Positions 10,564-51,600 of a stretch of 53,894 nucleotides of DNA are shown here, piece after piece; position 1 is the first letter of the stretch; each line of letters opens with the position of its first letter. The DNA is from Candidatus Aenigmatarchaeota archaeon (GTDB lineage Archaea > EX4484-52). A program made the position numbers and the translations under genes. Below the pieces are notes generated by a model. It was not told the DNA's origin and did not search any database. It worked only from the letters and a program-made list of their open reading frames with translations. Where the stretch lies: NCBI GenBank assembly GCA_023137195.1, contig JAGLPV010000027.1:1-53894 (forward strand), in the 5' to 3' direction.

Positions 10564-13500
10564 ATGAATCCCGATGAGCCAATCAAGAAATATTTTTCCA
10601 TCATTGAGAAAGAAACAACACGATGTTATGACATCGCAAAAAAAGTAAAGGCAAAAGGCATTGACATTGACGATGAAATCAACATCCCTATTGCAAAGGA
10701 TTTGGCAGCAAGGGTTGAGGGACTTATCTCTTCTTTTTATCCAATAATAAAAAACTGCGGGGTTCAGGACGGAATAAGGGCACTTGAAAAAAAATACGGA
10801 AAGAACTCCGAGAGAGTTGCCCTGGAAGCAGGAAGGGATATTGCCATCGGAAAATATGTGAAATTTGAATCAAAAAAGGATGCCCTTGAAATGGGACTGA
10901 GAATTGCTGTCGGCTATCTGACACAGGGAGTTGTGACTGCCCCATTAGAGGGTATTTCAGAAGTCCAACTAAAAAAAAATTCTGACGGAAGCGAGTACGC
11001 TGCCGTCTATTACGCAGGACCTATAAGGTCAGCAGGAGGAACTGCATCAGCCATAAGTGTTGTTGCATTTGACTTCATCAGGAAAGCACTAGACATTGCA
11101 GATTACAAGCCTGAAGAAAAAGAAATAAAACGGTATGTAACAGAGATTGAAGACTATTCAACAAGAATAGTGGAAAAGCAATATCACCCGGCAGAAGAGG
11201 AAGTAAAGATGATGATAGAAAACATCCCTGTTGAAGTTACTGGCGACCCCACAGAACGCCTCGACGTTTCAAATTACAAGGATCTGCCGAGAGTAGAAAC
11301 AAACAAGATCCGTGGAGGGATGTGCCTTGTTTTTCTTGACGGGGTTCCGCTGAAGGCGGAAAAAGTATTCAAGAGGATAAAAAAATATCCAAAAGACTAT
11401 GGTCTGAGCCATTGGCTGTGGCTTGAAAAGTTCATTAAACTCAAACACAAGCTCCATTCTGTTTCAAAAAAAGACACAGGAGAAGATGAAAAATACACGC
11501 CAAACACAAAGTATTTATCTAAAATCATTGCAGGAAGACCTGTTTTTTCATTTCCAAATACAAAAGGCGGCTTTAATCTAAGATATGGCAGGTCAAGGAC
11601 AGGAGGCATTGCCTCAACTTCAGTCCACCCCGGCGCAATGCACCTGGTGGGATTTATCGCAATAGGCACACAGCTGGCAGAAGAGCTTCCCGGGAAGGCA
11701 ACTGTCGGGACTGTGTGTGATTCAATCAACCCCCCTATTGTGAGATTGGAAGACAAAAGCATTATTGAGATAAAAACAAAAGAAGAAGCAAAGAAACACA
11801 GGGATGATGTTGATATAATTATATCTATGGGAGACATACTGGTTCCATACGGGGAGTTTGCCAACAACGGTCATATCCTTATCCCCTCTTCTTATGTGGA
11901 GGAATGGTGGGCGCAGGAAGTGCAGGAAGCGCTGGACAAGACAAAATCAAAAAATGAAGAAAAGCAGGAATTTCTGCAATACACACAAGCTCCGTTCAAA
12001 AGACCGGATTTTTTAACAGCCCTAAAAATAAGCAAAAAACTCAATGTCCCACTGCACCCCGCCTATAATTATTTCTGGCATGACATAAATAAAGAGAATC
12101 TAATCAAATTAATAACAGGACTGCAAAAAGCAATAGAAAACCAGAATTCTTCAGGCGATGTCGTATTCGATTTGGCAATAGCAGAGCAGACAGGAGCAAA
12201 GCAGGTTCTGGAAGATCTATGTGTCCTGCACAGGGTACTGAATGAAAAAATAATCATAAAGAAAAACACAGCATATTCTCTTTTGTATTGTCTTGGATTA
12301 ATAACAAATGAAGACGACTTCAAAAATAATTTTGTTGAAAAGATAGAATCAACAGATGCAAAAAAAATAATCGAAAGAATAGAAAAATCAACAGAAATAA
12401 TGGATGCTGTCAACAATTTATCCGGCATTAAAATCATGAAAAAATCCCCGCACAGGATTGGATTAAAGATGGGAAGACCGGAAAAAGCAGAAAGGAGAAT
12501 ACTAAAGGGAAGTCCCCAGGTGTTGTTTCCCTGCGGTGATGCCGGTGGAAAAACAAGGAACCTTATGGAAACCGCAGAGAAAAAGACAATCACAGCGACT
12601 GTTTCAAATTATATCTGCCCCGCATGCGGCAAGCAGACTCCGTTTTCCTACTGCTTTGACTGCAAGATACGGACAACCCTAACAGAAGCCCGCCGGGAGG
12701 GTTACACTAAAGGCACAGTCATAAAGACAACCTACACCCGTATGAATCTTGCTGTTGACAAGCTACTGAAAAGCGCAATGAAAAACGTAGGCGAAGAAGC
12801 TAAACCAAAATTATTCAAGGCAGTCCGCGGAGTGATGGGAGTTGACAGGAATGTTGAATTCATAGAAAAAGGCATTTTAAGAGTAAAACATAGCCTTTTC
12901 GTGAACAAGGACGGTACAGTACGTTATGATTCAATGAATGTTCCCCTGACACATTTCCGTCCAAGAGAAATAGATGTAAGCGTTGAAAAATTAAAAGAAC
13001 TGGGCTATGTTGTAGATATGCACAACAAACCACTGAAGGACAAAGATCAGGTATTGGAGTTAAGACCGCAGGACATACTTGTATCAGACAACAGCATTTT
13101 TTCAGGAGCGCAATACCTAATCGGGATTTGTAAATTTGTTGATGATTTACTTGTCCAATTCTACCACGAAAAGCCATTTTACAATGCAAAGACAAAAGAG
13201 GATTTGCTCGGGCACCTGGTGGTCGGTCTTGCCCCCCACACTTCTGCAGGAGTAATGGGGAGAATAATAGGTTTTACTCCTGCAAAAATAGGTTATGCCC
13301 ATCCATTCTGGCATGCAGCAAAAAGGAGGAATTGCCTTGTTCCGGAAACAAATATCCCGATAATATCAAATAAAGGAAAAAGCAACATTATCTCAATATC
13401 TGATTTGTATAAAAAAACAAAAACCCCTGAGAAAATAGTTGATGATTTTGGAACAAAACAAAAAACAACCGATGAAATAAAAACAATTAGTTTAAATAAA

Positions 13501-15558
13501 AAAACAGGAATGCTGGAGGAAAAAAATATAGTTTCTGTTATTAAAAGTCCTTCTCCAAAACATTTGATAAAGATACAATTGGAATCAGGGAGGACTTTTT
13601 GCGCTTCGCCGGACCATGTAGTTTTAGTAAGTGAAAATGACGGAAAATTGAAGAAAAAAAAGCTTGTTGAAGTGGATGATAAAGATTGTTTTTTGACTGC
13701 TAAAGATGCGAGAGTGAAAGAAATAGATATTGAGGAAATTGATCTTTTGTACGAATTTTCCAAAATAAAGAAGTTGTATGATTGTTTAATGATTAAAGGG
13801 ATTAATAAAGAACTATCTTTGTTGGTGAAAAAATCAGGCGGTTTAAAACAAACTGCAAATAAATTGAATTTAAACAAAAAAACATTTTCAAATTACATTT
13901 ACAGGGACAGTATCCCATTTTCTGTTTTATCAGCCCTATTAAAATTACATAAAAAAGATTTGGATTTTATTCCAAAAAAATGTAAACTGGGTATTAAGTA
14001 TGATACAGTCGTTCTTCAAAGAATAATAAAAACAGATAAATCATTCATGAAGTTGGTTGGATATTACATTGCAGAAGGATATTCAAGAGCTAAAGAAAAA
14101 AATTGTTATCAGGTAAGCATTGCCTGCAAAGAAAAAGAAATGCATAAAGATATTCAAAATTGCATTAGTTGTGTTTTCAAAATCAAAGCAAATGACAATA
14201 CAAATGCCGTTTCTATTTGCTCAAAATTAATATATTATTTATTTGTCGAGATTATGAAAGTGGGTGCGCGCGCAAAGGATAAAAGAATGCCGAACTTCTT
14301 AATCAACATTCCCAAAGAAAAAATGAGTTATCTTCTATCTGCGTATTTTTCCGGAGATGGCTCTGTTGAAAAAAATAGGCTTCATGTTAGTTGTTGTTCT
14401 ATTAGCAAAAAATTATTAATAGACATTGGATTTCAGTTAATGCGATTCAATATATTTTACAGGGTAAAGAAAGAACAAAGACCCAGTGGAGGACTTGCAA
14501 AAAGGTTTTATGAGAAAAAAGGAGAAAACCCAATTTTTACGCTTTATTATATTTCTGTAAGGTCTTCTTATGCGCGTATTTTTTATGAAAATATTGGCTT
14601 TTCATTAAAGAGAAAACAACAAAATCTAAAAAGTGTTCTTGATAAGGAGAGAACCCCTAGAATTAAAGAATCCAAATATGCAGTAAATTTCATTATTGAA
14701 AAAATAAAAAAAACAGATGTTGTAGAGGCAAAATCAAAATATCTCTACGATATTGAAGTAGAAGACAATCATAATTTTTTAATAAACGATTTCATCTTAA
14801 CAAATAATTGCGACGGTGACGAAGACTCAATCATGATGCTCTTGGACGCACTGCTTAATTTCTCAAAGAGCTACCTGCCGGACACAAGAGGTGGTCGTTC
14901 AATGGATGCCCCTCTTGTTTTGACCAGCATAATGAATCCCGAGGAGGTAGATGATGAATCATGGAATGTGGATATTGACAGTTCTTACTCTCTTTCTTTT
15001 TATAAAGCGACATTAGAATACAAATTCCCTAGTGAAGCAGAACAGGTGCCAAGAGTTGTAGAAAATGTCATAGATACTCCCGAGGCATTCCACATAAAAT
15101 ACACGCACGAGACAACAGACATCAATGACGGCATGATAACCACAAAATATGTCAGTCTCCAGTCAATGGAAGACAAGGTACGTACGCAATTGCAATTGGG
15201 CAAAAAACTCATAGCAGTGGATGAAAATATTGTTGCAGAAAAACTGCTGTCAAAACATTTCTTAAAGGACATAAAGGGAAATTTAAGGACATTTTCAAAG
15301 CAGTCTGTAAGATGCGTCAGTTGTAATGAGAAATACAGGAGAATTCCTCTGCTTGGAATATGCATAAGGTGCAAAGGAAAGCTCATTCTTTCTGTCTCAG
15401 AAGGATTTGTAAGGAAATACATTGAACCGTCAAAGCAGATCATTGAAGATTATAAAATATCGCCTTATCTGTGCCAGCAGTTTAAGATTCTGGAAAAACA
15501 GGTAGATGACCTGTTCGGCAAAAAGGACAGGCAGATGAAATTGTTTAAGTTCGGGTGA
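10564..15558 (+). CDS. polC: DNA polymerase D large subunit DP2, intein-containing precursor
   Basis: DP2 is the catalytic subunit of PolD, the archaeal replicative polymerase that works with DP1 (not in this window). The precursor has 1664 residues; removal of a 492-residue intein leaves about 1172, normal for DP2. The N-terminal part shows GPIRSAGGTASA and GGFNLRYGRSRTGG; a zinc site lies near 678-696 (CPACGKQTPFSYCFDC); the C-terminal zinc site is CVSCNEK...CIRCKG. The catalytic Asp motif is CDGDED, immediately after the intein (C1416, D1417, D1419 in the precursor), so the enzyme should be inactive until splicing. The C-terminus ends QMKLFKFG; I see no clear PCNA-interacting peptide beyond that. 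Confidence 0.95.
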   Translation: MNPDEPIKKYFSIIEKETTRCYDIAKKVKAKGIDIDDEINIPIAKDLAARVEGLISSFYPIIKNCGVQDGIRALEKKYGKNSERVALEAGRDIAIGKYVKFESKKDALEMGLRIAVGYLTQGVVTAPLEGISEVQLKKNSDGSEYAAVYYAGPIRSAGGTASAISVVAFDFIRKALDIADYKPEEKEIKRYVTEIEDYSTRIVEKQYHPAEEEVKMMIENIPVEVTGDPTERLDVSNYKDLPRVETNKIRGGMCLVFLDGVPLKAEKVFKRIKKYPKDYGLSHWLWLEKFIKLKHKLHSVSKKDTGEDEKYTPNTKYLSKIIAGRPVFSFPNTKGGFNLRYGRSRTGGIASTSVHPGAMHLVGFIAIGTQLAEELPGKATVGTVCDSINPPIVRLEDKSIIEIKTKEEAKKHRDDVDIIISMGDILVPYGEFANNGHILIPSSYVEEWWAQEVQEALDKTKSKNEEKQEFLQYTQAPFKRPDFLTALKISKKLNVPLHPAYNYFWHDINKENLIKLITGLQKAIENQNSSGDVVFDLAIAEQTGAKQVLEDLCVLHRVLNEKIIIKKNTAYSLLYCLGLITNEDDFKNNFVEKIESTDAKKIIERIEKSTEIMDAVNNLSGIKIMKKSPHRIGLKMGRPEKAERRILKGSPQVLFPCGDAGGKTRNLMETAEKKTITATVSNYICPACGKQTPFSYCFDCKIRTTLTEARREGYTKGTVIKTTYTRMNLAVDKLLKSAMKNVGEEAKPKLFKAVRGVMGVDRNVEFIEKGILRVKHSLFVNKDGTVRYDSMNVPLTHFRPREIDVSVEKLKELGYVVDMHNKPLKDKDQVLELRPQDILVSDNSIFSGAQYLIGICKFVDDLLVQFYHEKPFYNAKTKEDLLGHLVVGLAPHTSAGVMGRIIGFTPAKIGYAHPFWHAAKRRNCLVPETNIPIISNKGKSNIISISDLYKKTKTPEKIVDDFGTKQKTTDEIKTISLNKKTGMLEEKNIVSVIKSPSPKHLIKIQLESGRTFCASPDHVVLVSENDGKLKKKKLVEVDDKDCFLTAKDARVKEIDIEEIDLLYEFSKIKKLYDCLMIKGINKELSLLVKKSGGLKQTANKLNLNKKTFSNYIYRDSIPFSVLSALLKLHKKDLDFIPKKCKLGIKYDTVVLQRIIKTDKSFMKLVGYYIAEGYSRAKEKNCYQVSIACKEKEMHKDIQNCISCVFKIKANDNTNAVSICSKLIYYLFVEIMKVGARAKDKRMPNFLINIPKEKMSYLLSAYFSGDGSVEKNRLHVSCCSISKKLLIDIGFQLMRFNIFYRVKKEQRPSGGLAKRFYEKKGENPIFTLYYISVRSSYARIFYENIGFSLKRKQQNLKSVLDKERTPRIKESKYAVNFIIEKIKKTDVVEAKSKYLYDIEVEDNHNFLINDFILTNNCDGDEDSIMMLLDALLNFSKSYLPDTRGGRSMDAPLVLTSIMNPEEVDDESWNVDIDSSYSLSFYKATLEYKFPSEAEQVPRVVENVIDTPEAFHIKYTHETTDINDGMITTKYVSLQSMEDKVRTQLQLGKKLIAVDENIVAEKLLSKHFLKDIKGNLRTFSKQSVRCVSCNEKYRRIPLLGICIRCKGKLILSVSEGFVRKYIEPSKQIIEDYKISPYLCQQFKILEKQVDDLFGKKDRQMKLFKFG
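13333..14808 (+). mobile_element. Intein with LAGLIDADG homing endonuclease in DP2
   Basis: The intein starts at C924 of the precursor (after HAAKRRN) and ends at N1415, followed by extein C1416 of CDGDED. This is the known archaeal PolII/DP2 insertion site. Block A is CLVPETNIPIIS; block B is SGRTFCASPDHVVLV; the late blocks are YLYDIEVEDNHNFLINDF and ILTNN. Two dodecapeptide motifs, LVGYYIAEG (1164-1172) and LLSAYFSGDGS, keep their acidic residues (E1171 and an Asp in the second), so the endonuclease may be active. The penultimate residue is Asn where most inteins have His (NN/C instead of HN/C). The insert is more Lys-rich than the surrounding polymerase. Confidence 0.93.
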
Positions 15559-15566
15559 TTATTTAC

Positions 15567-16104
15567 TATATCACGACACAAAAGTAATCATGGAAGTTTC
15601 CTTACAATCCATACTACTTCTAAGATTTTGTTCTTATCTCATCACATTTGTGCAACAAGAACAAAATGCAAGTATGTGGCGTGATATACTAGCAAAATAC
15701 ATAAATGCTATCTAAATACAAATTATGTCTTTGTATTATTTTCTGCTGTGAATAAATTATTAAGCAGAAAATAAGCTTAAAAGTAGTATTTTGCGTAGGG
15801 ATTTTGTTATTGTTGCACAAATTTCAAGAATACAATAACAAAACATTGGAAGTATTTTGTCCATAGGACAAAACATTAGACGTATTTTGCTCAAAGAGCA
15901 AAACATTGGAAGTGGTGTTGCTTGTAATGAAACTTCCATTGGTATTGCCAGTAAGGAAACTTCCATTGGTAAGTGTCGCAGGGAAACATCCATTGAACTT
16001 TTATGATTATTTTCTGCCGTGTATAAATGGTAAGCAGAAAATAAGCTTAAAAGTAGTATTTTGCGTAGGGGAAACTTTTATGATTATTTATGTGTTTTGC
16101 TATA
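15567..16104. repeat. Modular palindromic repeat, copy A (long form)
   Basis: This copy occupies most of the 623-bp gap after DP2. Outer pair 1: TATATCACGACAC (15567-15579) with GTGGCGTGATATA (15676-15688). Outer pair 2: TAGCAAAATACATAAAT (15690-15706) with ATTTATGTGTTTTGCTA (16086-16102), one mismatch. Inside pair 1 is the hairpin 15625-15635/15657-15667. Inside pair 2 are hairpins 15737-15747/15763-15773, 15802-15813/15832-15843, 15855-15862/15866-15873 and 15885-15892/15896-15903, then three 27-bp tandem units (15914-15994), then a second copy of the 15735-15800 module at 16006-16070. No convincing coding frame. Related copies lie at 17092-17368 and 25300-25411. No transposase is seen; a non-autonomous element or structured RNA are both open. 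Confidence 0.8.
15914..15994 (+). repeat. Three 27-bp tandem units inside repeat copy A
   Basis: The units are 15914-15940, 15941-15967 and 15968-15994. Each is exactly 27 bp, begins GGT and ends GGAAAC(T/A)TCCATT or GAAACTTCCATT, with a more variable middle. The reverse complement of the unit 2 end, ATGGAAGTTTCCTTAC, occurs at 15590-15605 and again in copy B at 17115-17130, so the same module is present in both orientations. Confidence 0.8.
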
Positions 16105-16951: not shown

Positions 16952-17017
16952 AATACTACCTCTATATAAGATTTATTGAATAAATATGATGAAATTTTAT
17001 AAAGGTTTTATAAACAA

Positions 17018-17092
17018 TAGCGAGGGTAAGACTCGAACTTACGACCTTCGGGTTATGAGCCCGACGAGCACTCCAAACTGCTCCACCTCGCT
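17018..17092 (-). tRNA. Initiator tRNA-Met (CAT)
   Basis: All four arms fold on the minus strand: acceptor AGCGAGG/CCTCGCT (7 bp), D stem GAGC/GCTC, anticodon stem TCGGG/CCCGA with loop CTCATAA (anticodon CAT), T stem GTAAG/CTTAC with loop TTCGAGT, discriminator A; 75 nt in all. A1-U72 and three consecutive G-C pairs (GGG/CCC) at the base of the anticodon loop are the archaeal initiator signature, which separates it from elongator Met and Ile2. The 3' CCA is not encoded and there is no intron. The gene's 5' end touches the edge of repeat copy B. Confidence 0.93.
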
Positions 17093-17368
17093 ATATTGCG
17101 GCACAAAAGTAATCATGGAAGTTTCCTTACAATCCATACTACTTCTAAGATTTTGTTCTTATCTCATCACTTTGTGCAATAAGAACAAAATGCGATTAAT
17201 GTGGCGCGATATATTCTCAAACGCAATTGTATTGCTTGTTATGCTAATTGCGTCTTCGTATATATTTTCCTGCTTAACTTTCGAATTTTATTCGCAGTCA
17301 AATATACTAGTAAACACACAAATACTATCAAATAGGTATCTTTTGCATTATTTATGTGTTTTGCTATA
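17092..17368. repeat. Modular palindromic repeat, copy B (beside initiator tRNA)
   Basis: Outer pair 1 is TATATTGCGGCAC (17092-17104) with GTGGCGCGATATA (17201-17213); a T opposite G keeps pairing where copy A has C-G. About 70 bp from 17102 are nearly identical to copy A from 15577, including ATGGAAGTTTCCTTAC and the hairpin ATTTTGTTCTTAT (17150-17162)/ATAAGAACAAAAT (17179-17191), 13 bp perfect. Then comes a different hairpin ACGCAATT (17221-17228)/AATTGCGT (17246-17253) and a degenerate outer pair 2, ending ATTTATGTGTTTTGCTATA at 17350-17368. A frame across it (16986-17369) runs through the tRNA and is not a gene. Confidence 0.8.
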
Positions 17369-25299: not shown

Positions 25300-25411
25300 T
25301 ATATCACGGCACAAAAATAATGTAAGTAATGTGGCGTGATATACCAGTAAAATACATAAATACTATATAAATGTCAATTATATCTTTGTATTATTTATGT
25401 GTTTTGCTATA
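25300..25411. repeat. Modular palindromic repeat, copy C (short form)
   Basis: The minimal form of the family: TATATCACGGCAC (25300-25312) with GTGGCGTGATATA (25331-25343) around an 18-nt loop, then AGTAAAATACATAAATAC (25346-25363) with GTATTATTTATGTGTTTTGCT (25388-25408). It lacks the inserted modules present in copies A and B, which lets one see where those inserted. It lies between the histidine kinase and the ferredoxin genes. A short AAAGT microsatellite follows (25411-25427). Confidence 0.8.
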
Positions 25412-33120: not shown

Positions 33121-33747
33121 TTAATTAACTTTATTTTTTTCAATAAGTTGTTGAATAAATTCTACTAATTTAAAAACCTGAGTTGAGGGATTGCTCTCCC
33201 TACCGATTAAAGGAGTTTTTTCTTTTTCATGCTTCTCGTTTAATTTTCTTGCATTTTTGATTGCAGTAGATAACTTTTTTTCTAAAAGAGGATTAATATT
33301 TTTATTTTTTTCATAGTCTTTTATGAACTTCTTTAATTCAACCATGGTATCTTTCCGTGATATTGGAGACAAAATTTGCTTATAATGCAAAAGAAACCAG
33401 AGTTCAAAACAAGGATTGGATAAGGCAATTTGGATATTCTTTGTTTTTGCGTGTTCGTATTCATCTTTTAGAACATTATTCTTATTTTCATCAACATCAA
33501 AAGCGCACCATACTCCATCTCCTTCATCTAAATCAATACTCCAATTATGCATTTCTTCTTTTGCAAAATCAACAATATTTTTTGGATCTGTACATTTACC
33601 ATGAAGAGGAATAATTTCTACTCCGCTCCATCTCGTTTTAAATCCATTGAAGTATATTATTTCTGTTTTTTTGCCCTCGCAAACTATTATTACTTTTCGT
33701 TTAGGTTTGCGAATTTCCTCTTTTCTAGAACGATATCCCTTACCCAT
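33121..33747 (-). CDS. RloB-like (AbiLii-type) defence protein
   Basis: A 208-residue protein matching the RloB family: IIVCEGKKTEIIYFNGF (E24, T28, E29) and a later AFDVDEN acidic pair, which resemble the Glu and DxD of TOPRIM-type nuclease sites, then NPCFELWFLLHY. RloB occurs next to the ATPase RloA in restriction loci and as AbiL, where the pair causes abortive infection. Its ATG is one nucleotide after the RloA stop (TAATATG), so the two are translationally coupled. Anti-phage function here is inferred from family and pairing. Confidence 0.85.
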   Translation of the reverse strand: MGKGYRSRKEEIRKPKRKVIIVCEGKKTEIIYFNGFKTRWSGVEIIPLHGKCTDPKNIVDFAKEEMHNWSIDLDEGDGVWCAFDVDENKNNVLKDEYEHAKTKNIQIALSNPCFELWFLLHYKQILSPISRKDTMVELKKFIKDYEKNKNINPLLEKKLSTAIKNARKLNEKHEKEKTPLIGRESNPSTQVFKLVEFIQQLIEKNKVN

Positions 33748-33748
33748 A

Positions 33749-34984
33749 TTAAAATATTTTATTTTCTTTTATGAAAGGCAATGCACCATACTTGCCAGCA
33801 AGATACCCTCTTTCAACATCTTTATCTTTTCGGGGACTATACTCCACCAGAGAATAAAGGTCAGTAACTCCGATTTTATCGTCTTTTTCAGTAAACCAAA
33901 TTTGATCTCTTCTAAAAATATCTCGATCTAGTAGATTGGTATTATGCGTAGTAAATATTAACTGAGCATTGTTTTTGTTTTGTGTCGGGTCATGAAATAG
34001 CTTAATTAAAAACACATTTAGCAGATGATGCAGTTTAACATCCAACTCATCAACAATCAAAATACGCCCGTTTTTCAAAGCGTCAATCCATGGTCCTATC
34101 AAAGAGAAAATCTTTTTAGTACCTTCTGATTCTTCCTCGTCAAAATCAAAGCTAACGCCCTTATGGATGGTATTTATTTTAGATTGTTTTATTTCTTTCT
34201 CATTATTCATTACTAATTTCTTGAGTTCCTGAGGCATATCTTTTGGCAAATCCGCCATAGTTAGTTTCTCAATAGTTCTGGAAATATCATCAATTCCTAC
34301 ATCTGCCACTGCCAATGCGTTTAAGATTAATTTTTTTGTAGAATCATCCTTCAACATACCCGCAGTATAATTTTTTAGAGTATGATAATCGGTAGATATG
34401 ATGACACGCAAATCCTCTTTAAACCAATCAAAAATTTTTGAGAGGGGTTCATAATTATCTAGTGTTGCTTTTGAAAGATATAATTGGTTTGGTCGAGTTC
34501 TCAATGAAAGGACATCTTGTTCTTTTTTATTTTTCATAAATTTGTAATCATTAGTATTTTTTCTTTCAAAGATAGTCTTCTTATATGGATAAGAGTACAA
34601 ATATTCACTTATGATTTTCTCCTTGTTAAAAGAGAGACCATAAACATATTTAACGCCTTTTTTGATAAAAGTAATGCTCATTTTGATGGGTTTTGTGAGA
34701 CATTTTTTGTCTAATTTAAAAGGAGTAAATTCTAGTGAATCGCCTTTTTGGAAATTATGAGATGTTGTAACAAGTCCTTTTAACAATGTAAGTGCTAAAA
34801 GAACATTGGTTTTTCCAGATGCATTCGCTCCATAAATTGCCGCACTTTTCAATAAAGAATCTTCTTTCAACACATCTATTTTAATTAAATTATCCTCTAA
34901 AGATGCATCCTTTGTGGATACCATACTTAGAGTTACTTCTTCCTTGATTGAACGGAAGTTTTCAACATTGAATTCAATTAACAT
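33749..34984 (-). CDS. RloA-like (AbiLi-type) AAA ATPase of a defence pair
   Basis: The protein has 411 residues from the ATG at 34984, which has a ribosome-binding site GAGGTG 9 nt upstream; the frame extends to 35038 but MLIEFNVENFRS is the family's usual beginning. Walker A is GANASGKTN (52-60), Walker B is RILIVDELD followed by KLH, and a switch-type TTHNTNLLD. This is the SMC/ABC-like AAA_15 ATPase that accompanies RloB. ATP-driven sensing of phage with RloB as the nuclease is the usual model. AT-rich, like the HEPN locus. Confidence 0.88.
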   Translation of the reverse strand: MLIEFNVENFRSIKEEVTLSMVSTKDASLEDNLIKIDVLKEDSLLKSAAIYGANASGKTNVLLALTLLKGLVTTSHNFQKGDSLEFTPFKLDKKCLTKPIKMSITFIKKGVKYVYGLSFNKEKIISEYLYSYPYKKTIFERKNTNDYKFMKNKKEQDVLSLRTRPNQLYLSKATLDNYEPLSKIFDWFKEDLRVIISTDYHTLKNYTAGMLKDDSTKKLILNALAVADVGIDDISRTIEKLTMADLPKDMPQELKKLVMNNEKEIKQSKINTIHKGVSFDFDEEESEGTKKIFSLIGPWIDALKNGRILIVDELDVKLHHLLNVFLIKLFHDPTQNKNNAQLIFTTHNTNLLDRDIFRRDQIWFTEKDDKIGVTDLYSLVEYSPRKDKDVERGYLAGKYGALPFIKENKIF

Positions 34985-35020
34985 TTTATACACCTCTTTA
35001 TTCGATACGAAACACTGATT

Positions 35021-35138
35021 TTTGTGATTTTCTCGCAAATATATACTATAATTGTATGTAATTTATATAAATCTTTTGAATTTTATCTTATTGATATTAT
35101 TATATGTTTTATATTGTTTTCTGTGATAAAATCACAAA
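35021..35138. promoter_or_regulatory. Inverted and direct repeats upstream of the RloA/RloB pair
   Basis: TTTGTGATTTT (35021-35031) and its perfect reverse complement AAAATCACAAA (35128-35138) flank a 96-bp AT-rich stretch holding TATA-like sequences (ATTTATATAAAT near 35065-35075). The right copy also contains a local palindrome GTGAT-AAA-ATCAC (35123-35135), and GTGATTTT occurs a third time at 35154. The pattern suits an operator for a repressor controlling the defence genes. No regulator gene is visible next to it. Confidence 0.4.
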
Positions 35139-41348: not shown

Positions 41349-41594
41349 ATGGGAAAAAAAATATACCAGTGTAAGCGTTGTGGATATATATGGAGGAGTT
41401 TTCCTGATGAAAAACCAATATATTGTCCTAAATGTTACAGGGCAAGTATCACAGAAGTAAAAAAGACCAATGCGCTGTTCAAACTATTTCAAAAATTGAA
41501 AAAAAAAGCAGAAGAATTCAAAAAGAAAATTGTCAGGAAAAGACAAGCCAAGGAATACAATAAAGCAATGTTAAATAATAATTACTATGAATAA
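41349..41594 (+). CDS. Small zinc-ribbon protein
   Basis: An 81-residue protein. CKRC (8-11) and CPKC (26-29) form a rubredoxin-like zinc ribbon of the type seen in small archaeal regulators and RNA-binding proteins. The rest is a basic helix (KLKKKAEEFKKKIVRKRQAK) that may bind nucleic acid. Its stop overlaps the next gene by 8 nt (ATGAATAA), so the two are translationally coupled although one is a cytoplasmic protein and the other a surface protein. Confidence 0.72.
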   Translation: MGKKIYQCKRCGYIWRSFPDEKPIYCPKCYRASITEVKKTNALFKLFQKLKKKAEEFKKKIVRKRQAKEYNKAMLNNNYYE

Positions 41595-44500
41595 AATATG
41601 CATAATTATTTTTTTTTATTTTTTCTTCACAGCAAACGTTTTCGGTTTTATGAGCAATCCTTATGATGATTTTAACCGCACACAGAACAGTCTTCATATA
41701 GAAATCAATAAAAACACTACAGAAAATATAACCCTGCATTTCAAACACACATCTGATGATTTTTCAGTATTTAAGATGGAAGACCATGCAACTATTTCCA
41801 ATTACACGATAAATAATTCTTATCTGGAAAAGCAGGGAGTATATGAATATTATTTTACCGACAATGACAGCAACAGGTTCCCTCTCAACAACGCCACATT
41901 CAAGACCACATTGGTTTTAGGCAATAATACATACCGGGAAATTGCATTAAATTACACAAATGCCGACCCGCAAAGATATTGCAATAAAACAAACAATGAT
42001 TTTTCCTGCGAAATTGAAGACCAACAGGGCATAACCATAAATGCTTTTTATTATGCCTATTTTTTAAACAGAACATCTCTTCACAAGGAATGGGCATGGA
42101 ATTTTTCAATAACCGGAATAAGTGGAACTTCTGCATACCAGAGATGCGATCATTTCTGGAATGATTTTGATTGCAGTTTTTGGGCAACACCTTCCAATAT
42201 CACCGGAGCAAAACGACAAGCAGCACTTATAAACGCATATTGGTATGCCAACAATATATATCCAAACACCACACTTCATGAACTTGCGCAAAATTATACA
42301 AACGGACACGCAGAGGAATGTGATGTATGGAACACAACCCCTGATTTTGACTGTGGCAACAGCGACGACCAGGGCCATATAACTTTAGCATACTGGAATG
42401 CATATAAGTATTCAGGAAATGAAACATACAAAAACATCTCTCAAAACCTGACCAACATACTGATAGCAAATTACACAAACCAAAGCAATTATTCCTACTA
42501 TGCTGCATTCGGTTTATTCAAAGCATACGAGTTGACAGGAAACAGCATATATCTTGATTACGCAACTAACCAGACCTTGTATTTTGCGGCGAACAACTGC
42601 ACCCAAAACAACGTTTGCGACCCAACTGATTTGTCATCGAACAACCTACTGATGATTGAAGCATACCGGCAGACAGGAAACAGATATTATGAATCCGTGG
42701 CATTAAATCGCTCTCTCATCAATTCAACTGATTCATCATGCAACAATTTCAACTGCACTGAACCTAAAGAACAGAGTTGGATGATGAGGAGGGCATGGAG
42801 TAATTACAATGCATTAAGAAGCGAAGAAAAATATTTTTTCAATCCAAAACTCGAAAAAGACAAAAAACTAAAAAACATAACAATTAGCATATATTATAAC
42901 GGCATATTAGACAATCCAAAATTATATTTACGGCATTTTAACACATCTAATTTTTCAGTATTTGATTTAGAGTTTGGCAAACAAAATTTTGTATTTAAAA
43001 CGCTTTTTCAAAAAGATATTGCAAAGCAGGGAATATATGAATATTATTTTACTGATAGAAATGGAAATAATGAAATGAGATTTCCGCGTGAAAACGGGAC
43101 ATTTAAAGCAATGTTAACAATAGTCAATGATACACGCCAGAATAATGCAATACAATTTACAAACAATCATCCCAGATTGCCTCCATATATACCTTTCTTT
43201 GGATGCACATCTGAAGACATACAGGGCATAACCATAAATGCTTTTTATTATGCCTATTTTTTAAACAGAACCTCTCCTCATAAGGAATGGGCATGGAATT
43301 TTTCAATAACAAACGCATCTGAAATGGGCGCCACATGCAAACCTTATTATGACTATGACTGCGATAATGATGCTTCTGGAGGTACTGGAGCAAAACGACA
43401 AGCAGCACTTATAAACGCATATTGGTATGCCAACAATATATATCCAAACACCACACTTCATGAACTTGCGCAAAATTATACAAACGGACACGCAGAGGAA
43501 TGCGATGTATGGAACACAACCCCTGATTTTGACTGCGAAAACATCGACGACCAGGGCCATATGACTTTAGCATACTGGAATGCATATAAGTATTCAGGAA
43601 ATGAAACATACAAAAACATCTCTCAAAACCTGACCAACATACTGATAGCAAATTACACAAACCAAAGCAATTATTCCTACTATGCTGCATTCGGTTTATT
43701 CAAAGCATACGAGTTGACAGGAAACAGCACATATCTCAATTACGCAATCAACCAAACATCCTATTTCCAAAACAACTGCACCCAAAACAATGTTTGCGAC
43801 CCAATAAATTTATCCTTAAACAACCTCCTGATGATTGAAGCATACTCTCAGACAGGAAACCACCATTATGAATCATTAGCGCTCAATATTTCCGGCATCA
43901 ACTCAACCAATATTATATGCAACAATTTCAATTGTATCGACCCGGGAGAACAGAGTTGGATGATGAGAAGAGCATGGAGCAATTATGAACTGTCCGAAAC
44001 AAACAGGGATTTACTTTCAATTGAAATGTCAACAAGCAAAACAACAGCATATGTGAATGAAGAATTTCAGGTAACCTGTATTGTGACCAATACAGATAAT
44101 TATGAAAACACGACAATTTACAACCTTGTTCTGGAAGTTGTTTTACCCGAGGGCGTTTCAGGAAATAATTTGACAAGAACAGTAGATAATTTATCTGCCT
44201 ACAATACGACAAACATAACAGTGACTGTAAGTTCAGCAACCGCAGGAAATAAAGATATTTCATGCACTGTGCAATCAGATAACGGGGGTCAGAACCAGAC
44301 AAGCAGAACCGTAACAATAAGTACAATGACAGAAATCCCTGGTGGTTCTTCAAGTAGTTCAAGCAGCAGTAGCAGCGGAGGAGGAGGTTCCATAATTCCA
44401 GTCAAAGAGGTATGCAAAAACTATACAAAAAAATATTATTATAGATACAATGATATCCTTTGCATATCTATCGAAAAATACCTGAATTTGTGCAACAAGA

Positions 44501-45360
44501 CAACTTTCTATTATCGCGGGAAATTAAGCGGCAAGATATTCAAAAAATGCAATGAATCCATTGATGTATTTATAAATGACAGTCATCTGGATTATTTTTT
44601 AAACATATCTACTCTTGAAAATTCAAAAGACACGCATGTTTTTGAAAAAGACAAGAATATTACCAATACAATAGATTATGCATTTAAATATTTCCTTTCC
44701 AGACCCATAGTTGAGTTTTACAACATAGAATATGAAAATATATCAGTTGACAAATTTTATCTTGAAGTACTTTTGCAAAATGCAAGTGCATCAAACAATT
44801 ATAATCTCTATTTCAACATAAGCCACCATACAGAAGATATAAGTTGCTTTCTCAACACTCCCGGCGGAACAGAACTCATTGATTTTACAGAAACAAAAAG
44901 CACAGCATATGTCAATACATTGAATCAGACACACAATATCTCAGTTGTATGCATCAACAAAACATCAGACAGGCAAATCCGGAACATTACAATAACAATT
45001 CCATATTATGAAGAAGAAACAAAAGAGCAAAAGAATTATTGGCTTCTAATATTAATCATTTTGATTGCAGGTACAGGCATATCCTATAAAACAAAAAAAG
45101 GCGGAATATTGATTGAAAAAGCATCAGTTGGCATCAGGGAAATATCAATAAAAAGCACTCTTGATTCAATAAAAAAAACAGTCAATGACAAGCAGTTGAA
45201 ATCCAGTTGGAATAAATACAAGGTATTACAGGAACAATATGTGAAAATCAGGAAAACGCAGGATTATGCCAAAACAAAGAAAATAAGGCAGGATATAAAA
45301 ACAATAGGGCTGGAAATACAGGAATTGCTGAAAGAAAAAAAGAGATTGGAGAAGAAATGA
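41587..45360 (+). CDS. Large surface protein with internal duplication and membrane anchor
   Basis: A 1257-residue protein. The signal peptide is MNKICIIIFFYFFFTANVFG. Two copies of a unit of about 390 residues follow, each with a beta-rich part (FSVFK...GVYEYYFTD) and a helical part with Asn-Ala-Tyr-Trp helices (INAFYYAYFLNRT, ALINAYWYANN) that resembles an alpha-hairpin toroid. Next come an Ig/CARDB-like domain (about 813-915), a Ser/Gly linker (920-932), another beta part, a membrane helix (about 1149-1168) and a cytoplasmic coiled tail. N-X-S/T sites are very frequent, so heavy N-glycosylation is likely. The helical part may bind sugar or protein; no catalytic residues identified. Confidence 0.75.
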   Translation: MNKICIIIFFYFFFTANVFGFMSNPYDDFNRTQNSLHIEINKNTTENITLHFKHTSDDFSVFKMEDHATISNYTINNSYLEKQGVYEYYFTDNDSNRFPLNNATFKTTLVLGNNTYREIALNYTNADPQRYCNKTNNDFSCEIEDQQGITINAFYYAYFLNRTSLHKEWAWNFSITGISGTSAYQRCDHFWNDFDCSFWATPSNITGAKRQAALINAYWYANNIYPNTTLHELAQNYTNGHAEECDVWNTTPDFDCGNSDDQGHITLAYWNAYKYSGNETYKNISQNLTNILIANYTNQSNYSYYAAFGLFKAYELTGNSIYLDYATNQTLYFAANNCTQNNVCDPTDLSSNNLLMIEAYRQTGNRYYESVALNRSLINSTDSSCNNFNCTEPKEQSWMMRRAWSNYNALRSEEKYFFNPKLEKDKKLKNITISIYYNGILDNPKLYLRHFNTSNFSVFDLEFGKQNFVFKTLFQKDIAKQGIYEYYFTDRNGNNEMRFPRENGTFKAMLTIVNDTRQNNAIQFTNNHPRLPPYIPFFGCTSEDIQGITINAFYYAYFLNRTSPHKEWAWNFSITNASEMGATCKPYYDYDCDNDASGGTGAKRQAALINAYWYANNIYPNTTLHELAQNYTNGHAEECDVWNTTPDFDCENIDDQGHMTLAYWNAYKYSGNETYKNISQNLTNILIANYTNQSNYSYYAAFGLFKAYELTGNSTYLNYAINQTSYFQNNCTQNNVCDPINLSLNNLLMIEAYSQTGNHHYESLALNISGINSTNIICNNFNCIDPGEQSWMMRRAWSNYELSETNRDLLSIEMSTSKTTAYVNEEFQVTCIVTNTDNYENTTIYNLVLEVVLPEGVSGNNLTRTVDNLSAYNTTNITVTVSSATAGNKDISCTVQSDNGGQNQTSRTVTISTMTEIPGGSSSSSSSSSSGGGGSIIPVKEVCKNYTKKYYYRYNDILCISIEKYLNLCNKTTFYYRGKLSGKIFKKCNESIDVFINDSHLDYFLNISTLENSKDTHVFEKDKNITNTIDYAFKYFLSRPIVEFYNIEYENISVDKFYLEVLLQNASASNNYNLYFNISHHTEDISCFLNTPGGTELIDFTETKSTAYVNTLNQTHNISVVCINKTSDRQIRNITITIPYYEEETKEQKNYWLLILIILIAGTGISYKTKKGGILIEKASVGIREISIKSTLDSIKKTVNDKQLKSSWNKYKVLQEQYVKIRKTQDYAKTKKIRQDIKTIGLEIQELLKEKKRLEKK
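42205..43728 (+). repeat. Nearly identical repeat blocks inside the surface-protein gene
   Basis: Bases 42205-42546 and 43387-43728 are nearly identical, offset by exactly 1182 bp (394 codons), with only scattered, largely silent changes. The flanking parts of the same two units are much more diverged. This pattern is expected from recent gene conversion within the gene. Confidence 0.85.
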
Positions 45361-45621: not shown

Positions 45622-48600
45622 ATGAAAAAAGAAACAATTCTATCTCAAAATAAAATGAAAAAGTCTCTCTTTTCCATGTTTTTTGCAACACTTGTTTTCG
45701 TCCTTTTCCTCTCCTCGTATGCCGGGTTTTCTGCCCTTGATGAAAATGAATCAAACAATATATTTTTATCATACAATTTAACCCATGAGAATGTATCTCA
45801 ATACGAGGATGTATCTTTAATATTGACAGTTTTGCTCAACGACAATTACAATACCTATCTTAATTATTATTTCCCACTTGAAGAAGAGTTGACAGAAGAC
45901 CAGATGACTTTGTCAAATCAAACTCAGAATTATTCCGTATTCGCCCATAATTTCAACACATCAAAAACAGGCGAATATATTATCGACTCAGTCATAATTG
46001 AAAACGAAAATGAAACACATTCTTACGATTTCCCAAACTTAAGTTTTTTTGTATATTCCAACAATTCATCACAGGACAATCAGACAGGCAACTCATCAGC
46101 AGAAGACCGGTCAAGCGAATTCAATATTTCCAAAAACATACTATGGTTTAATTTAACCTCTTCAAATATCAGCCAATACAAACAACTTTCCTTTTCAATA
46201 ATATTTTTGCTGAACGAATCCCCTCAAAGCAATTATTTGTTTTACTACTTGCCTGAGCAGGCAACAGTAAACAAAGAGCAGATGTCTCTAATCAATCAAA
46301 CTCAAAATCATTTTCAATACAGCTACAATTTCAACACCTCAAAAACAGGTCAATATGTCATTGATTCTATTGGTCTCCGGACACAGGACAACAACACATA
46401 TTATTATAATTTTTCAAACCTGAATTTTTTTGTCAGATGCAATTCATCAGATGTCCCGGAAGGAGAAGAAGAGAATGAAAACCAGACCGACGAAAATGGA
46501 GAAGAAAATACAACTTCAGATACCAGACCTCCTTCAACAACAATAAGCGGAAAACTCAACGATGATTCAGACTACATTTTCAACACATGGACCAATTCAA
46601 ATTTCGTTAATATCTTTTTGGGATGCAAAGACCAGGCAAATGGTTCGGGATGCAGGACAACGCAATATTGCATAGGCGCAGAGGACACATGCATTTTCAG
46701 TCCATACTTTGACTACATACAGATTTCAGAAGAAGGGCTTTTTTACATAAATTACCTGTCAACAGATTTAGCCAACAATACAGAAGAGACAAAGACAAGA
46801 ACAGTAAAAATAGATACAACTCCGCCAGGCATAATAATTTATTCCCCTCAAAATACAACCTATACCGGCAAAGAAATATCTCTGAATGTATCCTCCAATG
46901 AACCGATAAGCAACTGGTCATATTTTCTTAACTCTCCAAACAGCATAAGTTTTTACAACCCAACAATAGTTGTATCTCATAATAACAGTAATAAGTTGGT
47001 CGTTATGGCAACAGACAGGGCGGGAAATTACAACTATTCTGTAGTTTATTATTCTGTCAACATATCCAATACAACAATGCAGAAAAATATCATTCTCGAC
47101 AATCTGACCATTGATGAATTGCTGACCAATAATCCTATAATTGTTGGAATGCCTGTTGTATGGAAAAAACAAATAAAAATCACAGGAGATATTTCAAACA
47201 GGACAATTGAAATTTCTGTTCCGGCAGAGGCAACAAATATTTCTTTTTCTCAAAACAAAAAAGTCAACAAGACCAAGGTAAGTAAAAACCCGATTAAAGA
47301 TTCAGAAAAAAAAATATCAATAAAGTTCGCACAGGGAGAAAAGGAGAAAACACCAGTCTCCATTTCTGCAAAACCAACGCAGGAAGAAGTAACAATCACC
47401 TACAAAACTACAGCCCCTTACAGGATAGACAAAGGCACTTCCTATTCCAACGGCAAAATAACAAAATCAATTACAATCGGAAGCAGTGCCGGCATGCATT
47501 ATGAAAAGGTCCTTGCCTGTGAGGATATAACGGAAATGGAAGATTCAATAAACAAAAGACTTTTTTATGTAGATGTAAACAACCAAAAAGTTGATGTAAC
47601 CAACAACCCAATTTACAATGCCAGATTTTTCGACACAGACAATAATGGCAGGACAGATAAACTATGCTTCATAGTTCCCCAACTCTCAGACAGGAGCTTT
47701 GAAATAAGGGGCGATTTTGTTTATTTTTACACAGGTTCAACTCTAAACAACTGGACAGTTTATTTCAACCTTGCAGGAAATGAAACATTGTATATCTACA
47801 ATCTTACAGACAACATTGCATACAACTCACTTTATTTTTTCAGGGAAAGCACTTCTTCATACGAAATATACACTCCTGAAGAAAATCCAGACTACATATG
47901 GTTCAACTGGTATGCATCCGGCTATACAAAAGGAAAAATAGTCTACGACATCAACCAATACACAACCTCCAAATTAAAATTCGTTTTCGGCGACATTACA
48001 GATTATATTCACGGGTTCAATTACTATGAACAGGCAGAGCCGAAAAAACTGGATTTGAACAACCCAATATTTACATTTGACCTGTGTTCATTCAATGACA
48101 CATACTGGAAATGCAGCCCCCAGTATTACAATGCAAATGAATACGAGCCAGGATATTACGGGCTGTCTGCTTCATTGACTTCCGGTGGCATTTTAAAATA
48201 CCTGCGGCTTCCAAAAAATTCCACAGTAACAGCCGCATCATTGCAGTTCACCACAAATATAAATGAAAGCATCGCAAACTACAATGGAATCTTTTCTTCA
48301 TTTTCACAAGGGAGTTTTTCTCCAAATACAGAAAATGAAATAGCATTCTCCAACAACACCCATGTCAATGTTCAGGACAATTCAGCTGTTTTGTGGTCTT
48401 ATCCATTGACCAACATAAACGAGATTGCTGTCGGCAATATTTTGCTTGCAAAGACAAGAGATGAGATAGCAATTGCAACAACAAGCGGCATCAAAGTTTT
48501 AAACAATACCGGTGGACTCGAATCCGGCAATTGGCCAACAACAGGCACATACACCCACATTCATTCATCAGATCTCATTACCGCCCAAACTAATTACTGG

Positions 48601-51600
48601 CGGGGCGATTTAGTCGCAGAAAACCTAATCCCTGTCGGGAAAAACACCAGCAATACAAAATCAAGATTTACCATAAATTACACCTTTGACGATTTCACAG
48701 ACAAAACATGTTTCATAAAAAGCGCAATAAATTATAAAGGCGCAAAATCAGGAGACCTGAAATTTACATTAAACAACACAGACTACGACATAGATGAGGC
48801 AAAAATAACAAAGAATGCAAGAAAGTACCACTATGACGACGACAGCTATGCAGAATATATAGGTGATATAAAAAACGACACAGAACAAATCTTCAACCTA
48901 TATTATTCTTTCGAAAGCCCCCCGCATGCAAAGACATGCTACATAAAAACAGCATTGAACTACTTCAATTCAAGCGCAGGCAATCTTATCCTGGAAATAA
49001 ATAATAACGAATACGATGTAAACGGCAGTAAAATAGGTTCTGCATTGAATAAGACACACCACATACGAGGTGATTTAGTCGCAGAAAACCTAATCCCTGT
49101 CGGGAAAAACACCAGCAATACAAAATCAAGATTTACCATAAATTACACCTTTGACGATTTCACAGACAAAACATGTTTCATAAAAAGCGCAATAAATTAT
49201 AAAGGCGCAAAATCAGGAGACCTGAAATTTACATTAAACAACACAGAATACGACATTGACGAAGCAAAAATAACAAAGAACGCAAGAAAGTACTACTATG
49301 TTGATGATGCTTATGCCGAATATCTTGGGAAAATCAAAAACGACACAGAACAAATCTTCAACCTATATTATTCTTTCGAAAGCCCCATGTTCGCAAAAAC
49401 ATGTTATATCCAAACTGCGCTGAATTACATTAACTCAACTACCGGGAATCTTACATTTAAATTAAACAGCAAAGAATATGACCTTAATGAGAGCAAAATC
49501 AATAAATCCAATGTAATTGAATATAGAATTGATGACAATTCCACGGAGGAAGAGCAGGAGATTATTACTGGTTCCACTTATGAATTCAGGATGAGTTCAT
49601 TAAACTATCCTTCTACCTATAATTTTTCCACTTCCTGTTTTGTAAAGACAGCACTTTGCTACAACAACAGCATTTCCGGCAATATTTCTCTTTCTTTTGA
49701 GAATACAGAGTATAATGACAGGATTTATATCAACAAATCAGAAATTATTAATTGTTCAATCGGGTGGTCTTTTATTGATACACATGTCAATTGTTCTGAT
49801 ATAGTGGATGTGCTGGATGAAAATAATAAATTTATTCAATACAAATGCGATGGATGCAATAATACAGATCATTATGTGATTAAAGGAGATAATTCTTCCA
49901 GTGGCTATTCTTACAAGGATTTTAATGGACAGAGTTATAATTATATGATAAGAGCATATGGAAACGAGTCTCTTTTTTATTCTCTCATAGATACACAAGT
50001 CAACTGCTCAGACATCCTCCAAAACACAAATATAACATACCAATGCCTGGATTGCAATGACACAGATTATTACAACATTTTGCTCGATTTAAATTCTTCA
50101 GGTCACACATATTCAAATGAAAGCGGGACTGTTTCTACAAACCAGGCAGATGCCATAGTTAGGATATATACAAACAATTCCCTAAACTATTCTTCTATCC
50201 GGGTTGACGTTTTATGTAGCGACATGAACAATACAAACATAACATATTCCTGCGCTGGTTGTGATGACAACAATTATTACAACATTCTTGTGGACCAGAA
50301 CAATACAGTAAATAATAAATCTTATGAATCAACAAACGGCATCAGCTACACAAAAATAAACGGAGATCTGATAGCGGATTTGATAACCGCTTCAGCCACA
50401 TATACTTTTGTAGATACTACGGTGGCCTGCTCCGACATCCTCCAAAACACAAATATCACATACAGATGCAGCGATTGTAATGATAATTATTATTACACTC
50501 TTTTATTTGATTCTTATTCATCAGGACATTCCTATTCTAACCAGAGTGGGATTATTGACATGAATGATAATGCAGATGCAATAATAAGATGGTATACAGA
50601 TACCTCCCTGAACTATTCTTCTGTCCGAACCACTGTTTCATGCAGCGATATGGACAATACAAATATAACATACCACTGCTCAGGGTGCAATGACACCAAT
50701 TATTACAACATTCTTGTAGACCAGAACAGTGGCGTAAATGACAAATCTTATGAATCCACAAACGGTATCAACTACACCCAGATAAACGGCGATTTAATAG
50801 TATATATTGACATTTACGGCTCAAATTCAGGCGGAGAGACAATCGCATCCCTACAATATGACCGCCTGATAGCATACAACTCAACAGGGGATGAATTATG
50901 GACTTATTCTTTTCCACAGGGAACCACAGTTCAGGAAATAGATTCAGGAGACATAGATGAACTTTTAGTAGGACAGGAAGTTGCAGCCGCAACAACAAAA
51001 GGAGCATATTTATTTGATTCCAATGGAGGTTATCTGTGGAAATATCCTTCAGGAGACATGGACGTCAAAGCGATATCTGTTGGCGAATTGAACAGTTCTT
51101 ACGATGAAGAAGAAGTCCTCATCGTCAACAATAATGAAATCATCATGCTGAACAGTAGTGGTCAGGCAATAATAACAAGGACATTTTCATCTGCAATAAA
51201 TACAATAAGCATCGGCAACATATTGAAAGACACAGGAAACGAAATTTTAATTGGATTTTCAAACGGGACAGTCAGCATAGTCAATTCCAATCTAAACATA
51301 TTATATTCTTTTAATTCCCAATGCTCCGAACTAAAAAACAGTCTAATTGGAAATTTATATTCTAATAACGGGCAGGACATTGCTCTTTTGTGCATAACAA
51401 ATGCATACGGATATAACATTTACAATACGCCGACAGACATATACATGGATATTGGAAATGACCAGAGTAATGAATGGAATTATAATGGAATATTCAGGAC
51501 AACCACAACAATCAACAGCGGACTGACAGATGCCATAAATTCTTACATCACCAACAACTGCGCAGGTCCGATGTGCTACATCCCGGTTAATTTTTCATCC

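Follow-up and report, generated by a model that had tools for sequence, protein, structure and literature searches.

The closest archaeal precedent for the repeat family described here is SMR-A of Haloquadratum walsbyi (HqIRS42/43/55). It is ~110 bp long with inverted ends, too short to code, and present in up to ~50 copies; its insertions lie within palindromes close to the ends of PATEs and IS605-type elements, and what mobilizes it is not known (PMC3119063). PATEs, which derive from IS200/IS605 elements, are non-coding, carry palindromes near both ends without target duplication or terminal inverted repeats, and host inserted SMR-type elements (PMC3119063). In the pneumococcus, RUP is a 107 bp, A+T-rich repeat with inverted ends for which mobilization in trans by IS630 has been proposed, and BOX is modular, with optional internal modules, mutual insertions, and enrichment between convergent genes (PMC3049150). 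Yeast mitochondrial GC clusters (GC42) and fungal mitochondrial double-hairpin elements are short palindromic units with 2–3 bp flanking repeats, and their hairpin units merge and shuffle (PMC4478555).

Our analysis of a repeat family in a genome of Ca. Nanohalarchaeota suggests, as its best reading, an unusually modular small mobile repeat without a transposase, similar to the Haloquadratum SMR/PATE nests, RUP/BOX, and the GC clusters. If so, this group would be added to those known to carry short palindromic mobile repeats. A limited literature search found no paper on this family, nor any on such repeats in Ca. Nanohalarchaeota. The statement in an earlier note on this DNA that no named family has this build is correct only in part, as SMR-A is likewise ~110 bp long and likewise enters the near-terminal palindromes of other elements.

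The element shares its size, inverted ends, non-coding nature, high copy number, and link to palindromes with SMR-A. However, SMR-A has no target duplication and its ends are unrelated to any transposon, whereas the base unit here has TA at both ends; SMR-A targets PATEs and IS605 elements, whereas here the host element and its tenants are all small hairpin elements. Like PATEs, the element is non-coding, has near-terminal palindromes, and hosts insertions, but PATEs lack terminal inverted repeats. PATE palindromes are related to an IS605-type transposon; in the genomes analyzed here, the only such traces were truncated Y1 remnants. Compared by description, BOX has tandem internal boxB repeats, whereas here each module is a hairpin element of another kind at a fixed site. 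GC clusters differ in being organellar and G+C-rich, and in their proposed mechanism, which is possibly RNA-mediated (PMC4478555). We consider it probable that the element is a non-autonomous, ~110-bp mobile element that targets TA and is mobilized in trans, and that other hairpin elements have entered time and again at fixed points.

Structure and distribution of the base element

The window (the whole stretch of DNA that was analyzed, 53,894 nucleotides) belongs to a Ca. Nanohalarchaeota MAG, a small marine archaeon, with 1.42 Mb in 57 contigs. The earlier note placed three copies in it, and their coordinates were borne out, all on the plus strand: copy A (15567–16104), copy B (17092–17368), and copy C (25300–25411). 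Copy C, described there as about 110 bp with nothing inside, is the module-free base unit, in which two hairpins lie side by side. H1 spans 25300–25343 (left arm 25300–25312, right arm 25331–25343) and H2 spans 25345–25409 (left arm 25345–25361, right arm 25393–25409). The H1 consensus is TATATCRCGGCAC - AAAAGTAATGCAAGTAT - GTGGCGYGATATA, a single C separates H1 from H2, and H2 reads TAGCAAAATACATAAAT ... ATTTATGTGTTTTGCTA, followed by the terminal TA. Thus, the two shared inverted repeats of the earlier note are present, but they are adjacent hairpins in copy C and not the outer layers of one nest. The nesting in other copies is due to modules inserted in the H1 loop, the H1/H2 junction, and the H2 loop.

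Folded as single-stranded DNA with DNA parameters, two copies from the own species gave z of about −6, and copies from the sister species G001 and G002 gave −5.3 and −3.0. The ends of the element form imperfect terminal inverted repeats of ~22 bp, as in a MITE. They match at 16/22 positions in the own species (shuffle P about 4e-5 to 5e-5), and at 12/18 if the terminal TATA is left out (P = 0.002); the match is 17/22 in G001, similar in G003, and only 12/22 in G002. Each end folds as its own hairpin, H1 or H2.

Pattern searches and the stretches around copies yielded at least 33 base-element copies with flanks in the window's own genome. The 13-mer GTGGCGTGATATA with up to one mismatch has 36 sites genome-wide vs 1 for its reversed control, and ATTTATGTGTTTTGCT with up to two mismatches has 65 vs 3. 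By BLAST and covariance model, every one of the four species sampled from the genus has the base element, and no match came from 30 genomes of other genera in the same order; the three sister genomes (G001, G002, and G003) are incomplete MAGs (57–75%). A scan of named genomes matched only Candidatus Nanohalarchaeota archaeon B49_G9, at positions that fit G003. The exact pattern was absent from viral contigs, and there was no BLAST match in phages and plasmids. The searches of genome and relatives that the earlier note proposed thus produced neither of the outcomes that it named against itself, namely a lack of further copies or a match to a known MITE or RNA family. A loose script scan for H1-like hairpins, which returned mostly chance matches, was dropped.

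The same note also raised a structured RNA locus, i.e. a regulatory RNA or sRNA kept for its function. In 36 H1 sequences from four species, 86.8% of stem cells are paired, six pairs show two-sided change, and 35 cells are double-changed vs 12.1 ± 2.3 in shuffles; the loop sequence is conserved. This strong covariation and the stable fold of the two own-species copies would suit an RNA. However, G.T cells (14) are not in excess of A.C cells (19), so that nothing points to selection on a single RNA strand; a search with Rfam covariance models matched only tRNAs and no family for the element; and the copies occur in either orientation, in gene contexts of more than one kind, with empty sites in sister species. 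We therefore rejected the RNA reading as very unlikely, and the palindrome appears to be maintained at the level of DNA. We infer no host function for the element.

Insertion sites and candidate enzymes

Orthologous places were found through flanking proteins, and several of them were empty. At copy C, with the same two genes on either side, G003 has TATAA-TA-ATTAAACT (the sequence across the site being ...TCTATAATAATTAAACT...) vs TATAA-TA[element]TA-AAGTAAAG in the window. For the copy beside tRNA-Arg (L083), G003 is empty at L205, with exactly 2 bp between the conserved flanks, and the site of the own copy L062 is empty in G003 (L142). The comparison of L080 with L135 is empty both ways: the L080 site is empty in G003, and the nested G003 pair at L135 is empty in the own genome. 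A G002 copy (L152) also has an empty site in the own genome (L076). Elements are nested in other elements at L071 and L135. At the copies with clear empty sites, TA is found at both junctions, though a pre-existing TA would look alike.

Empty orthologous sites with TA junctions indicate insertions at TA. The base unit would insert there and leave TA at both ends, most simply by a 2-bp target duplication. Together, the dispersed copies, empty sites, nested insertions, and imperfect terminal inverted repeats support the non-autonomous mobile element that the earlier note put forward beside the RNA locus. At the end of the DP2 gene in three sister species, the base element is absent nearby, and the neighboring gene differs there. 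Separately, at L067/L131, elements adjoin the same gene in both species, by either shared descent or a repeat hit.

The flanks are asymmetric. On the left, A stands at −2 in 27/41 sites and C or T at −1 in 36/41, whereas the right flank, with A or T at +1, is merely A+T-rich. A symmetric TA-target enzyme would not predict this, and the asymmetry therefore keeps a Y1/IS200-IS605-type mechanism open. The element could then be a PATE-like derivative: a Y1 transposase would recognize the hairpins at the two ends, move the element in single-stranded form, and place it behind a short left target such as A-Y-T-A, without target duplication. The hairpin at each end, the left-biased flank consensus, and truncated Y1_Tnp remnants in G003 and G001 would fit this; archaeal PATEs likewise have two palindromes and lack target duplication (PMC3119063), and Y1-type excision would suit precise module loss. 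Nevertheless, we regard this origin as unlikely, because PATEs have no terminal inverted repeats, whereas the ends here match at 16/22 positions, the own genome has no Y1 gene, and the Y1 remnants lack the element's ends.

The preferred reading of a TA-target element spread by a trans-acting transposase, itself predicted, through one genus of Ca. Nanohalarchaeota would take a specific form if the element, like pneumococcal RUP, were the MITE of a transposase of the IS630/Tc1 type that strictly duplicates TA. This form is quite possible, though we place it somewhat below even. It agrees with the inverted ends, with TA on both sides where empty sites are clear, and with decayed DDE_3 (IS630-type) genes in G002 and G003; yet the own genome has no IS630-type gene, the DDE_3 remnants are too decayed for their ends to be compared, and the flank preferences are asymmetric.

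As the earlier note remarked, there is no transposase in the window, which held for every ORF scanned. Searches of the four incomplete MAGs with the transposase profiles PF01797, PF07282, PF13358, and PF01609 returned only decayed or unrelated loci. Neither Y1_Tnp nor DDE_3 had a match in the own genome, and the DDE_Tnp_1 loci there do not carry the element's ends (TATATCRCGGCAC / TTTTGCTATA). Among the families searched in these MAGs, none of the transposase loci found bears those ends. The mobilizing enzyme may be absent or decayed in the four genomes, or hidden by the incompleteness of the MAGs. At several G003 contig ends (L145:2526-2673, L146:2539-2740, L157:2274-2541, and L147), sequence of the H1-end type continues into a longer repeat (ATATTCATCCAAGTGATGAATACCTAAGTCATGGGGAAACATTAGACC...), which ends with the contig in three of them and could be a larger, possibly coding element, and thus a candidate for a longer autonomous copy.

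Modules at fixed points of the hairpins

Copies A and B carry extra modules at defined points, as the earlier note claimed, and the insertion points are identical across the own copies. In copy A, which has TA at both ends, module M1 (15589–15667, 79 bp, two hairpins) lies in the H1 loop between the H1 arms (15567–15579 and 15676–15688). Its H2 arms (15690–15706 and 16086–16102, followed by the terminal TA at 16103–16104) enclose a large M3 array with M4 nested in it (15738–16085), made of two alternating hairpin types and extra hairpins. Copy B, which adjoins the 5' end of a tRNA-Met gene, holds M1 (17114–17191) and, at the H1/H2 junction, M2 (17214–17306, two hairpins). Its H1 arms are TATATTGCGGCAC / GTGGCGCGATATA, a correction to the earlier reading, and its H2 (17308–17366) has a decayed left arm and a right arm at 17350–17366.

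Across 27 copies from the window's genome, three insertion points were used: the H1 loop by M1 (79 bp), the H1/H2 junction by M2 (72–93 bp), and H2 by M3 (~77 bp). M4 lies inside M3 in copy A and L064, L080 has an insert within M1, and in G003 a different module, M5, fills the H2 loop. M1, M3, and M5 are thus inserted inside near-terminal palindromes, as SMR-A is, while the base unit itself lies mostly in ordinary spacers. On inspection of the sequences, M1, M2, M3, and M5 each appear to consist of one hairpin followed by another. Module junctions read from the sequences have 1–7 bp of ambiguous overlap, which bears on the comparison with SMR-A and its lack of target duplication.

Seven of the eight possible combinations of M1, M2, and M3 were seen (presence states in that order: 000 in 10 copies, 100 in 5, 010 in 1, 001 in 3, 110 in 3, 011 in 4, and 101 in 1), and all three pairwise four-gamete tests fail. 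Backbones that are 97.8–99.1% identical carry different modules, though module identity and backbone identity are partly correlated. Near-identical backbones with different modules, together with the failed tests, indicate that the exchange or turnover of modules does not follow the backbone. To judge from these sequences, modules come and go, or recombine, with precision, either because they repeatedly insert and are precisely lost again or through gene conversion. In the preferred reading, M1, M2, M3/M4, and M5 would have entered fixed points of the H1/H2 palindromes and their junction, and their gain, loss, or exchange would have produced combinatorial copies such as A, B, and C.

A stronger version, which we find doubtful, is that the fixed points are recurrent target sites which hairpin cassettes enter and leave precisely by a hairpin-directed reaction. 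The ~110-bp element would then act as a docking platform: its modules would be replaced without regard to the state of the backbone, and the host genome would have no transposase gene dedicated to this. Alternatively, the modules may never have moved by themselves within the family: each would have been inserted once, and the combinations would stem from gene conversion between dispersed copies or from hairpin-promoted deletion. M1 and M2 were seen only within the base element, and this fact, the identical insertion points, and the partial correlation of module and backbone identities are in line with single insertions. Against them, solo elements of the M3 and M5 types are found at other places in G003, G001, and the own genome, and the three four-gamete failures would require frequent short-tract conversion or loss. 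We hold single insertion to be possible, if somewhat more doubtful than not.

With the invaded TA-target element as the working interpretation, the copies offer a natural series that runs from the empty site through the bare element to elements with one, two, or more modules, and host, tenants, and combinations can all be counted in it. This makes a tractable comparative system for the question posed by Haloquadratum, namely how repeats without a transposase locate palindromes in other elements and get into them.

Solo M5-type elements in G003 lie at L198:1851-1936, L199:1905-1997, and L200-L206, and several adjoin GTAAATAAAGTATGTCTTGCGTCAGGAA-type repeats. A separate dispersed hairpin type has the conserved loop AGTAGTATTgctYGTAAGGAAACT and compensating stem changes at two pairs; it is found singly or in tandem with another type of hairpin (L216:1841-1919, L217:1700-1811, L210:825-858, L211:104-193, and L209:1697-1772).

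Genomic placement and neighboring genes

Copies lie in both orientations, in mixed gene contexts, and at non-conserved sites. Half of them (16/32 sites) are between convergent genes, a placement shared with the pneumococcal repeats. Three copies stand 0–20 bp upstream of tRNA genes, each with its H1 end towards the tRNA: copy B at tRNA-Met (window 17017–17093, minus strand), L080a at tRNA-Leu(TAA) (L080:3553-3635), and L083 at tRNA-Arg(GCG) (L083:4344-4415). The G003 orthologs of tRNA-Arg and tRNA-Leu have no element, which indicates that insertion in the own genome has moved away what lay upstream of these two genes. With elements this close, the question arises of how the promoters of the three tRNA genes still work.

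Other genes in the window were also of note. Two very long proteins, of 1257 aa (41587–45360) and 2757 aa (45622–53892, open at the window end), have internal repeats and no Pfam match. On the minus strand, an RloB-like gene adjoins an AAA_21 ATPase gene (33121–35038), resembling a defense gene pair. The gene for the DP2 DNA polymerase large subunit (10564–15558) contains an intein with a LAGLIDADG endonuclease domain at residues ~943–1414.
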